This document shows, one piece after another, positions 4,789 to 58,213 of a stretch of DNA of 64,000 nucleotides. The position numbers and the translations under genes were made by a program. The stretch comes from Thermomucor indicae-seudaticae (taxonomy: Eukaryota > Mucoromycota > Mucoromycetes > Mucorales > Lichtheimiaceae). The stretch's first letter is position 1, and every line of letters begins with the position of its first letter. The stretch is from the NCBI GenBank assembly GCA_000787465.1, contig JSYX01000060.1, positions 27,367 through 91,366 of the forward strand. Direction: 5' to 3'. The notes beneath the pieces are model-generated. The model saw nothing but the letters and a program-made list of their open reading frames with translations, was not told the DNA's origin and made no database searches.

Positions 4789-6429
4789 TTAATCCAAACT
4801 ATTCATCGGATCTTCCCGATTGTTTCTGGCATTGTTCGCATTGCCAAAGCGCCGGACTGGCTCGTTGGGTATGATATGGCCGTGAGGGCATATTCGGAAT
4901 GAGCGGGCCGTCGGAATCGCCCAACTTCGCTCGTCATCATCGTCGTCTTCGTCATAATCGTCTTCATTTCCTTGGTTTCTGTTAGCAGCGTACCCGAGGC
5001 TTGACATGGAGACCCCAATACTCGTAAAGCGACCATTGGAGTGCGAAGAGAGGGTAACGAATTGGCCGTCGGATTCCATGCTGAATGAAGTGCCCACGCC
5101 AAGTTCGTTACTCCGGGACTCATTGGATTCTTCTTCGCGAGAAACAGACTTTCGACTGCACATATTCCTCTTAATCTGGGAGTTTTCATTTCTACATTTT
5201 TCTACATTCTTACCACATTGGACAGGTTGAGCTGACCCGAAACCATTGACGTATACAATGTCCATGATATTCGTGATTGCATGGGAGCTTTATGAGCTCT
5301 ACTTTCACTCCAAACTCCTCTTGACAGATAATGCACTCAGTCTTGGTGGCTATTGTTTAACAGGGGTTTAATTTCGATTCCCTGCGCAATGGATGATTAG
5401 GATGTTTCCATACCGGCATCTCCTTCCTCGAGCTTCCTCTTCTCGAGTTTATCAATATCTGCGTCAGCAGCTGGGTTCGGTCGAGCATGACTATGGCGTG
5501 TGGAGAGAGCTGTTGTCAATTGTTAAAGCTTTTGTCGTTTCAATTAGGTTTTACCCGTCGCCCGAATCCATTAAAGATTGGAGGAAGCTTTCCCAAACTT
5601 GAGAGCTCGTAGTCCGGGTGCCGAGGTTATTGTATCCTTCATAGAGAATGCTAATCAAATGTCATCAGCACAAATACTGGTCCTCTAGGCCCGATAGAAC
5701 ACTGACTCAAGCAGATGCTCGAACATAGGATTTCTGTGTGTGGCATCATGCAGGTCTTCATCGTCCTCGTTCTCTTCCTCTTCCTCTCCTTCATAGTCGT
5801 AGTCATAATTATGGTCATGGTGATGGTGGTGGTAGTTGTGAAGATGCGGAGCGATATGTTCAGTCAGCAAATGCTGTCGATACACCAACCGAGCATTATA
5901 GTCGTAGACCGCGTCATAATAAGCATCAAAATCGTATTCATCTAAAGGATTGGTGTGACGCACGGATCTCCGCTGCGGTCGCCGTCTTTCTCTCTGGCGA
6001 CCTCGTTGATTCTCTTCGACTGACCAGCCGTCCTCAATATCTTCATATTCTTCGTCTCCGTCGTCGGTCACTGGTTCAGTATCCGTCACAGACTCGGCAG
6101 CACAGTCCGTCGTACCTTTTTGTCCTTGAGTTTTACATTGTGCTGGTCGATTATCCTCCTCGACCTGTTAGAACGTACGTGTTCTGTCAGTCTCGCCACG
6201 TTTCTTCACGCGAGTGAAGGTCATGACCATTTGTTCGACCCACCCTGGGCTTTTCCCGTACTTCATGAGAGGACGAAGAGGGAAGTGGTCGTGATCTGAT
6301 CCTTCAAAAAAGGATTCTGTCTTAACTTGCCTTTTCAACCGACCCGGAGTGGCACTTTTCGCAAACAGGTGAAGGTGTATCAGAAACTGTCGTCAGTGAT
6401 TTACAGTGATGACAATAGTAGCGTGCCAT
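4789..6429 (-). CDS. RING-H2 E3 ubiquitin ligase, RNF126/RNF115 (BCA2) type
   Basis: Exons 6429-6331, 6164-5707, 5650-5555, 5490-5414, 5349-5214 and 5155-4789, giving 410 residues. Residues 1-33 are a zinc ribbon (CHHC...CEKC) like the N-terminal ubiquitin-binding finger of RNF126/RNF115. A strongly acidic, Tyr/His-rich linker follows, with runs of five His and many Glu/Asp. The RING-H2 finger has the full spacing C-x2-C ... C-x-H-x2-H-x2-C ... C-x2-C, beginning at TECIIC and ending at STCPMC. The last zinc-binding Cys codon is split by the final intron (TG|T). The tail carries a poly-Asp stretch. The class transfers ubiquitin from E2 enzymes onto substrates in cytosol and endosomal sorting. 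Intron 1 uses a GC donor (AAG|GCAAGT), because a GT reading would stop at once. Substrate is unknown. Confidence 0.9.
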
Positions 6430-55770: not shown

Positions 55771-56934
55771 ATGTCTACTGACAAGGTCACTTGCCTTTTG
55801 AACTGGTGAGTTTTGGACGCCTGCAATAGATCCGTAGACGCGTCTTGGCTTACGACAAGGATTATTAGGCACGCCACTCCCTACCACTTGCCTCTCTTCT
55901 TGGCCGAGAAGCTCGGCTACTTTGCTGAGGAAGGTATCAAGGTTGCCATTTTGGAACCCAACAACCCTTCGGATGTCACGGAAATCATTGGTTCTGGCAA
56001 GGTCGACTTGGGCTGCAAGGCCATGATCCACACGATTGCAGGCAAGGCTCGTGGTTTCCCCATCAAGTCCCTTGGTACACTTTTGGACGAGCCCTTCACG
56101 GGTGTCGTGTACCTCAAGTCCAAGAGCGGCATCACGACTGACTTCCAGAGCTTGCGGGGCAAGCGCATTGGCTATGTGGGTGAATTTGGCAAGATCCAGC
56201 TGGATGAACTGACGCGTCAGTATGGCATGACCCCCGACGACTACACCGCAGTGCGCGTTGGCATGAACGTTACGGGCGCCATCATTCGCGGTGAGATTGA
56301 TGCCGGTATTGGTCTGGAGAATGTCCAGATGGTCGAGCTTGAAGAATGGTCCGTCCAGCAGGGCCGACCTGCCAGTGACGTGGCTATGTTGCGTATCGAT
56401 GAGTTGGCTCACCTCGGCTGCTGCTGCTTCTGCTCGGTAAGTTCATGACGCGTTCTTTTTTTTTTTCTTTCGTATGCTTACGCGTTCCTTTCCTTTGGCC
56501 AATAGATTCTGTTCATTGGTAACGAGACTTTCATTCAAAACAACCCTGAAAAGGTCAAGGCTTTCATGAAGGCCGTTAAGCGTGCCGCGGACTACATGTT
56601 TGAACAGCCTGCCGAAGCTTACGAGCTCTTTGTTGAAATGAAGCCACACATGAACAGCGAAGTGAACCGCAAGATCTTCCAGCGCTCGTTCCGCTACTTT
56701 TCCAAAGATCTCAAGAACGTCCAGCGTGACTGGGACAAGGTCACCAACTACTGCAAGCGTCTCGGTATTGTTGGCCAAGACTTCAAGCAAAACATGACCA
56801 ACGAATTCTTGTCCTGGCCTTTGCTGCCCGAATCCACTCCTGGTGTCGAACCCCCAACTGTGGACACTGGCGTCCTCAAGGGATGCAGTTCGTGCAAATT
56901 CGGTGCTCAGTCTCCTGCACCAGTACAAGCCTAA
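55771..56934 (+). CDS. THI5: THI5/NMT1-type HMP-phosphate synthase (thiamine pyrimidine synthesis)
   Basis: Exons 55771-55805, 55869-56436 and 56506-56934, giving 343 residues. The single-turnover enzyme makes the pyrimidine of thiamine (HMP-P) from its own active-site histidine and PLP. Lys62 (PLP) and His66 (the pyrimidine donor) fall at exactly the yeast positions in LGCKAMIHT. The iron-linked Cys cluster GCCCFC is present at the end of exon 2, and the N terminus ([15 protein letters not shown]) is canonical. The C terminus ends in a short Cys-containing segment (GCSSCKFG). A 3'UTR intron (56948-57122) and a TPP aptamer follow, so thiamine feedback through the 3'UTR is expected. Confidence 0.97.
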
Positions 56935-56947
56935 GATAACAATATGG

Positions 56948-57122
56948 GTAAGTGCGAAAGAAAAACAGAAACGCAAATGGACTGGAATTAGCGTGCGTGT
57001 TTCTTTTGGTTTGGGCCAAGTTTTACTAAACTATTGATGGCAACGTTTTCCCCCTCTTTGCCTGCCTGCGTGGGGCGGTGACTTTGGGGAAAACTTGTTT
57101 TGCTCTTTTTATTTATTTGTAG
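56948..57122 (+). other. Predicted 3'UTR intron of THI5
   Basis: The donor G|GTAAGTGCG starts 14 nt after the THI5 stop and the acceptor TTTATTTATTTGTAG has a good pyrimidine tract. Length is 175 nt, longer than most introns here. The first nucleotide after the acceptor is the first nucleotide of aptamer helix P1. Being within 50 nt of the stop, it should not itself trigger decay when spliced. Confidence 0.6.
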
Positions 57123-57230
57123 TGGTCGATCCTAGGGGTGCTCGAGTTTGCGCTTAAGCAATCCAATGGGCTGAGATCATACCCTCACTACCTGATCAGG
57201 ATAATACCTGCGAAGGGAAGGTGTCGACCA
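57123..57230 (+). ncRNA. TPP riboswitch (THI box) in the 3'UTR of THI5
   Basis: The conserved aptamer parts occur in order. P1 is a perfect 7-bp helix, TGGTCGA (57123-57129) with TCGACCA (57224-57230). AGGGGTGCT (57134-57142) forms the 5' side of P2; CTGAGA (57171-57176) is the pyrimidine-sensing loop; ACCC (57181-57184) closes P2. CCTGATCAGG (57191-57200), ATAATACCT, and GCGAAGGGA (57210-57218) are the pyrophosphate-sensing arm P4-P5 and L5. P3 is replaced by an expandable hairpin as in other eukaryotic TPP aptamers. It binds thiamine pyrophosphate and normally lowers thiamine-gene expression. Confidence 0.95.
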
Positions 57231-57247
57231 TTGTGGGGTTCTCGGAC

Positions 57248-57253
57248 AATAAA
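57248..57253 (+). terminator. Polyadenylation signal of THI5
   Basis: AATAAA lies 18 nt after the TPP aptamer, consistent with the aptamer lying inside the 3'UTR of the mature transcript. Confidence 0.6.
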
Positions 57254-57693
57254 GCTCTTTTCTCTATGACTTGTATATAACAATTCTTCTGTGCTGTCTT
57301 CTGTCTTGTTTGAGTAGATGATACAGTCTAGCATGTCTTCGTCTGCGGGGAAACAGTCGTCCTCTTTAGCAATACAACACTTCGATGATCAACCAAGGTC
57401 GCATTTATGACGACGTTGTTTTCAACTTTTGCGCGGATCATTAGTAAATTCGCGTCTTATAACTCGGTACAAAGTGGTTATGTCGAAGGCAGACATGAGC
57501 TTAGAGTTGACACGTACGAGATCATTGTTCTATTCGCCTCTTATAACTCAACGGTTATGTGGGTGAAAGGCAGTAGAAATAGAAGCACATCAAAAGCTCA
57601 TAGACAAGGAGTGCAATGACACAAACAAGTTGCTGACAATTTATTACAACAAAGTTTTTCCATTGCATATCCTATGAAGACTTCTCGAGGCAC
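57254..57693. other. Convergent 3' flanks of THI5 and RPL30; imperfect direct repeat
   Basis: No gene supported. Two related units of about 60 bp (57435-57496 and 57520-57577) share GATCATT, TTCG.CTCTTATAACTC and GGTTATGT words in the same order. A 70-codon frame across them is probably fortuitous. Confidence 0.5.
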
Positions 57694-58213
57694 TTATTGG
57701 GCGCTCAAGATGTCAGAGTCACCAGGGTCGGTGATGGAAAGAACGCTGGTGCGGAAGAGCTTACCGCAAGCGGTACCAAGGTCAATGTTGTCTATATAAC
57801 ATATTTAGCCCACATGTATTATACAGCCAATTTATTCGATACATACTGCCGTTGTAGTGGTGGACACCAGTCTTGGACAACATGGCGTAGTACTCGAGCT
57901 CAGACTTGCGGAGAGGAGGGCAGTTACCAGCAATGATGACGAGCTTGGCTAAAGAGAAAAAGAAAGAATAGTGCATTAGTACCAAAAGGGGGGACGATCT
58001 CTGCCCGCACAATGTACGGCGACCACGAGATTCTCTGGGGCTCCTGTCCCCCGACGTGGTCTTCTAAAGGAAAGCGTACTTACCCTTTCCCTGACGAAGG
58101 GTCTTCAAGGTAGACTTGTAACCAAGGGTGTACTTGCCAGACTTGGTGACGAGCTGGAGACGAGTGTTGATGGATTCAACGTTCTTCTTGGTCTTTTTAA
58201 CAGCAGGGGCCAT
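57694..58213 (-). CDS. RPL30: 60S ribosomal protein L30 (eL30)
   Basis: Exons 58213-58084, 57948-57847 and 57791-57694, giving 109 residues, a normal size. The L30e fold shows [21 protein letters not shown], then [20 protein letters not shown], the [22 protein letters not shown] core, and DPGDSDI near the end. It is a 60S ribosomal protein close to the subunit interface. In S. cerevisiae free L30 binds a kink-turn in its own pre-mRNA and blocks splicing. Here the 5' splice site of intron 1 sits in a hairpin loop, a similar opportunity. Exon 2 ends at GGC A|GTATGT, which restores GNNIDLG. Confidence 0.97.
58069..58090 (-). promoter_or_regulatory. Hairpin enclosing the RPL30 intron-1 5' splice site
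   Basis: In the transcript GGAAAG pairs perfectly with CTTTCC, leaving the donor GGTAAGTACG in the loop. A further long hairpin follows inside the intron (GACCACG pairing with CGTGGTC, 58055-58061 and 58021-58027, with a GGGG/CCCC inner helix). Confidence 0.5.

Follow-up and report, generated by a model that had tools for sequence, protein, structure and literature searches.

Both genes for de novo thiamine synthesis in the genome of Thermomucor indicae-seudaticae carry, by their sequence, a TPP riboswitch aptamer behind the stop codon. The first is found downstream of the THI5/NMT1 gene in the window, the 64,000-nt stretch of DNA that was analysed and to which coordinates refer unless a locus is named, and the second behind THI4 elsewhere in the genome. 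The original prediction had placed a TPP riboswitch in the 3'UTR of THI5, and this observation is strengthened by the same predicted layout behind the one clear THI4 gene.

The THI5/NMT1 coding region occupies plus strand exons 55771–55805, 55869–56436 and 56506–56934, whose joined frame is open and codes for 343 residues, with the stop codon at 56932–56934. The profile search assigns its product to the NMT1/THI5 family (PF09084, 6.4e-73). Its nearest named relatives, best among the matches listed, are from Apophysomyces ossiformis (89%) and Syncephalastrum racemosum (88%), both of which we take to be Mucoromycota. The carboxyl terminus aligns with the ends of 12 homologues chosen among 120 listed, its last ~20 residues being variable, and the aptamer is therefore outside the coding part. 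The gene that follows the aptamer, presumably RPL30 and read as such from its translated amino terminus, is on the opposite strand (57690–58213, minus strand); the aptamer is thus not the leader of this gene, as had been reasoned before. The introns of the RPL30-named gene are apparently about 135 and 55 nt long, so that introns above the usual 60 nt seem to be present next door. Between the aptamer and RPL30 a single ATG-started plus strand ORF of at least 60 residues begins (70 residues, at 57407); it does not amount to evidence for a gene.

An Rfam scan of the whole window gave one match above any family cut-off in the 64 kb, to RF00059 at 57124–57235 of the plus strand. It covers model positions 1–105 of 105, and its score of 61.8 bits over a cut-off of 54.3 (E 1e-9) excludes chance for the aptamer. 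The RNA predicted from 57123–57230 (plus strand) is a complete TPP riboswitch aptamer of the RF00059 class. P1 is formed by 57123–57133 with 57219–57230 and P2 by 57134–57137 with 57182–57185, the CTGAGA of the pyrimidine pocket is at 57171–57176, and P4/P5 spans 57191–57216. All elements named in the original prediction were found where it had put them, and the search with the Rfam THI model that it called for scored over the cut-off. P1, given there as TGGTCGA with TCGACCA, is present and longer, with 11 pairs and one bulge. P1 starts 188 nt after the stop codon, as had been counted, and is separated by 17 nt, not 18, from an AATAAA at 57248–57253 that is the likely poly(A) signal. The AGGGG of P2 (57134–57138) holds an AG at 57134–57135 that scores low, at 2.9 bits, in the local splice model; its counterpart is the plant and algal acceptor inside P2 (PMC9544697).

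The RF00059 search of the genome (24.77 Mb in 735 contigs) yielded two aptamers over the cut-off and, with E allowed to reach 10, none further; it scored 49 of its 862 first-look candidates, so that a divergent aptamer could be missed by it. Pattern searches for P4/P5 with up to 3 mismatches and for CTGAGA-to-P4 led to the same two places, and their reversed control gave zero. The second aptamer, at positions 4951–5061 of locus L003 (64.9 bits with RF00059), is placed like that of THI5, behind the stop codon of the THI4 gene (L003 3740–4857, contig G000:C285; PF01946 at 6.8e-106). Its P1 starts 91 nt after the stop and is followed after 22 nt by AATAAA, versus 17 nt in THI5. The CTGAGA of the pyrimidine pocket, the GCG of the pyrophosphate side, P1, P2, P4 and P5 are all present in both aptamers, which are 87% identical over 53 nt of their 3' half. 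Their P1 and P3 sequences differ, yet 11 P1 pairs are kept in both, which argues for function rather than for a recent copy.

Family searches of the genome identified one clear THI5 gene and one clear THI4 gene. An extra PF09084 match, barely above the cut-off (G000:C314:31463–31741, 23.4 bits versus 20.5), is found in a 208-residue open frame on a contig in which the genome aptamer searches found no aptamer, and the two extra PF01946 matches (contigs C20 and C268) are both below the cut-off. Neither the window nor the 9.9 kb around THI4 has a second match over the cut-off that could be a 5'UTR aptamer of fungal type I, the type with a 5'UTR intron and an upstream ORF, and the genome search, with its 49 of 862 candidates scored, identified no 5'UTR aptamer. 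The THI4 protein scores 431 bits with 1rp0 versus 344 bits with 3jsk (CyPBP37), which we take to be the Arabidopsis and the fungal enzyme, respectively, and among its 120 listed matches chytrid and plant proteins come after those of Mucorales. THI4 of this organism may be the ancestral fungal form.

TPP riboswitches have been called the sole class convincingly demonstrated in eukaryotes (PMC12335538), where those that have been characterised work by alternative splicing (PMC9544697). Fungal NMT1 and THI4 aptamers are mostly found in 5'UTR introns or in introns between exons (PMC5882874, PMC5997356, PMC11683625), in line with the premise of the original prediction that fungal TPP riboswitches are normally 5' elements. 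Some fungal or oomycete aptamers are in 3'UTRs, the named case being the eIF5B gene of Postia placenta (PMC5882874, conclusions). In Mucoromycota, Vargas-Junior et al. 2024 defined TPPsw-THI4 and TPPsw-NMT1, both present in one genome in several species; most of these sequences are in 5'UTRs, and the sections cited give no 3'UTR position (PMC11683625). The aptamers described here very likely belong to the same two groups. A Mucor NMT1 aptamer is reported in the supplement of Mukherjee et al. 2018 (PMC5882874). In the papers that the literature search turned up, and in the sections of them cited, no fungal THI5 or THI4 gene is described as having a TPP riboswitch in its 3'UTR; no claim of absence from print is made. 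Within that scope the aptamers are of a kind already known from fungal NMT1 and THI4, and their 3'UTR position on both genes would be new.

The THI5 and THI4 elements share the aptamer class and the same two genes with the Neurospora NMT1/THI4 type, whose aptamer is in a 5'UTR intron and works with alternative donors and upstream ORFs (PMC5997356, PMC5882874), whereas here it lies behind both stops. Their position is that of plants, where a 3'UTR TPP riboswitch is found on THIC and, except in angiosperms and some gymnosperms, also on THI1 (PMC10226581, PMC9544697, PMC4260697). Common to plant THIC and the fungal genes are a 3'UTR aptamer on the gene for the pyrimidine half, an upstream donor and an AG in P2, and in several plant groups the thiazole gene THI1, a THI4 homologue, likewise bears a second TPP riboswitch. 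The differences are that the gene here is THI5, that AATAAA stands behind the aptamer while the plant processing site is in the intron, that the best THI5 acceptor precedes P1, and that pairing between donor and aptamer does not rise above controls. A 3'UTR aptamer on a THI5-like gene is also known from the SSUA genes of the algae Micromonas RCC299 and Aureococcus, which differ in being single-exon; several of the riboswitches in that study may act in an undocumented manner (PMC4260697). Diatoms have 3'UTR TPP aptamers too, and the one tested gave no response (PMC9544697). The position is thus known outside plants, and in this fungus it may, as the original prediction supposed, have been arrived at independently.

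The 3'UTR of THI5 has signals of an intron directly before the aptamer, and the donor and acceptor of the original prediction were located as it had them. The donor candidate G/GTAAGT (56948–56953, plus strand; the slash marks the splice point) follows 13 exonic nt after the stop and scores 9.1 bits. It is the top donor of the last THI5 exon and 3'UTR, where the one other site, at 56888, reaches 6.3 bits; sites that equal its score are found at 0.35 per strand-kb. The acceptor candidate TTTGTAG (57116–57122, plus strand) ends directly before P1, which begins at 57123. Its 5.7 bits are the median of the 24 introns of the splice model, a rough one since these were chosen by a coding heuristic, and sites as good occur at 4.28 per strand-kb. 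A 102-nt stretch free of AG extends from 57020 to 57122; counted over both window strands, 23 of 7809 AG-to-AG gaps reach this length. The consensus donor, the ordinary acceptor at 57122 and this AG-free stretch make a THI5 3'UTR intron at 56948–57122 plausible.

In the 3'UTR of THI4 the donor AAG/GTACGT, 53 exonic nt after the stop, reaches 10.2 bits (0.08 per strand-kb) and is the only donor over the 10th percentile. The acceptor candidate CACTAG/GGG at L003 4962, inside P1/P2, has 2.9 bits and is below all 24 model introns, a model that takes in 3 of the 5 known THI5/THI4 introns and puts 2 of the 5 known acceptors below all 24. An acceptor-like TTTTTATGCGCCAG/G inside P3 (L003 4994) scores 6.3 bits versus the 2.9 of the P1/P2 site; splicing there would also destroy the THI4 aptamer. 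No canonical branch site was found near a THI4 acceptor, the sole branch-like site (4918) being just behind the donor. With the donor alone convincing, a THI4 3'UTR intron is uncertain.

The presence of a candidate acceptor at or in P1 in both genes is suggestive of TPP masking the 3' splice site through the locking of P1. From the observed aptamers, their positions and these sequence signals we infer, tentatively and short of an even likelihood, a negative feedback on thiamine synthesis through 3'UTR processing, in which TPP would bind, splicing would take place and respond in the direction set out next, and expression would be lost. When TPP is scarce the aptamer would be loose and the THI5 intron 56948–57122 spliced, giving a normal mRNA polyadenylated behind the AATAAA at 57248. 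Bound TPP would lock P1, which would then run on through TTTGTAG and cover the 3' splice site; the intron would stay and the mRNA would be retained or decay. In THI4 the acceptor candidate CACTAG/GGG is itself inside P1/P2, and an anti-P1 segment beside the donor would compete for the 5' strand of P1. In plants it is the donor that is masked, and acceptor masking by a locked P1 is not described for TPP riboswitches in the passages cited of the literature searched. Nonsense-mediated decay, to which a 50–55 nt rule applies, was considered as a common mechanism and set aside, since the exonic distance from stop to donor is 13 nt in THI5 and 53 nt in THI4.

The P1 of THI5 can be prolonged by 7 of 7 unbroken pairs, in which the acceptor TTTGTAG joins TTGTGGG (57231–57237, plus strand). 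Shuffling the 3' flank gives such a run in 104 of 20000 trials and shuffling the 5' flank in 134 of 20000, counts to be read for a feature that was noticed first and tested afterwards. Local folds pair the TAG of the acceptor with its P1-extension partners at 0.64–0.92, and the continuation brings P1 to -17.8 kcal/mol, compared with -14.2 kcal/mol in its absence. Of the seven added pairs, six are G-U or U-G and just 3 are used by the energy model. In whole-3'UTR folds without ligand the P1 of THI5 forms (mean pair probability 0.82) while that of THI4 does not (0.00); TPP therefore need not be what zips the THI5 P1. In these folds the THI5 acceptor pairs with the donor region whether the aptamer is forced or free, and its accessibility goes from 0.23 to 0.22 on forcing the aptamer, with P4 pairing one base off. 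The whole THI5 3'UTR has a z of -0.52 (29 of 100 shuffles as good) and displays no clear switch; for THI4 the z is -1.75 (11 of 200 as good).

The P1 of THI4 extends by 2 pairs upstream and no more. Its predicted anti-P1, GTGTTGATTGT, overlaps the donor end and forms 11 pairs with the P1 5' strand at -14.9 kcal/mol, versus -12.3 for P1 itself. It is matched by 22 of 2000 shuffles, by 9 of 320 window segments and by 0 of 40 control donor segments (controls of 17 nt, tested segment of 20 nt). An anti-P1 was also looked for in the THI5 3'UTR and is absent (992 of 2000 shuffles as good). Speaking for the hiding of the acceptor are the two aptamers, each behind its gene, a strong donor in each 3'UTR, the AG-free stretch, the P1 continuation and the THI4 anti-P1. 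Against it are the THI5 P1 that forms without ligand in the fold model, the mostly G-U continuation, the unchanged acceptor accessibility, the poor THI4 acceptor and the missing THI5 anti-P1; in addition, a well-conserved diatom 3'UTR aptamer is unresponsive to thiamine (PMC9544697).

The poor THI4 acceptor would be accounted for if the folded aptamer, standing before AATAAA, altered cleavage and polyadenylation without splicing, the donor-like sites being incidental. The AATAAA 17 nt (THI5) and 22 nt (THI4) after P1, a motif of which 0.012 are expected per 25-nt span, agrees with such control of 3'-end formation. However, this signal is expected after a gene anyway and lies outside the aptamer, exposed without structural change, and the THI5 intron signals are left unexplained; we consider this alternative rather unlikely.

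The plant model, in which the free aptamer pairs with the donor (PMC10226581), would here have the free aptamer block the 3'UTR donor and TPP free it, the spliced 3' end then leading to an unstable mRNA. The parts are in plant order, stop, donor and aptamer with an AG in P2 (PMC10226581, PMC9544697), and in THI4 the stretch just behind the donor opens (unpaired 0.06 to 0.57) once the bound shape is imposed, through the anti-P1 and not through P4/P5. The likeness to plant THIC drawn in the original prediction holds for position (3'UTR, upstream donor) and finds no support for the switch: among 40 donor-like control sites (GGTANGT, from both window strands), 16 in one gene's test and 13 in the other's pair with J2-4/P4 at least as well as the donor does. 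This pairing had looked good on inspection of the two genes and was dropped as evidence. On forcing the bound fold, donor accessibility hardly shifts (0.18 to 0.19 in THI5, 0.28 to 0.34 in THI4) and the donor GU stays paired (unpaired 0.11 to 0.10 and 0.03 to 0.01); an equally large shift is seen in 18 of 60 and 19 of 60 versions with a shuffled intron, with P4 pairing one base off. Moreover, neither AATAAA nor ATTAAA is found between stop and P1 in THI5 or THI4, while the plant processing site is in the intron (PMC10226581). A plant THIC-like switch is unlikely on these grounds.

That the aptamers are relics or do not regulate, as in the THIC gene of the diatom Phaeodactylum (PMC9544697), has this precedent and agrees with the no more than moderate folding advantage of the isolated aptamers over shuffles, 13 of 200 and 10 of 200 of which do as well. 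It is nonetheless improbable, since 11 P1 pairs and the core motifs are kept in both despite different P1 and P3 sequences, which implies selection. A role as leader of a downstream transcript is highly improbable: plus strand ORFs of 73, 70 and 179 residues follow THI4, the last starting 521 nt after P1, but this list is mechanical, the next gene behind THI5 is on the opposite strand, and both aptamers stand directly behind thiamine genes and before AATAAA.

The full reading, that an early-diverging fungal lineage controls de novo thiamine synthesis from both 3'UTRs by a ligand-locked P1 over the 3' splice site, is possible, if somewhat unlikely. Should both thiamine genes be controlled from the 3'UTR in a fungus, the plant-type position would be reachable outside plants. 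The two genes would then provide a means to study how expression is lowered by an aptamer in the 3'UTR, and a warning that surveys expecting a 5' position may have misfiled such aptamers.
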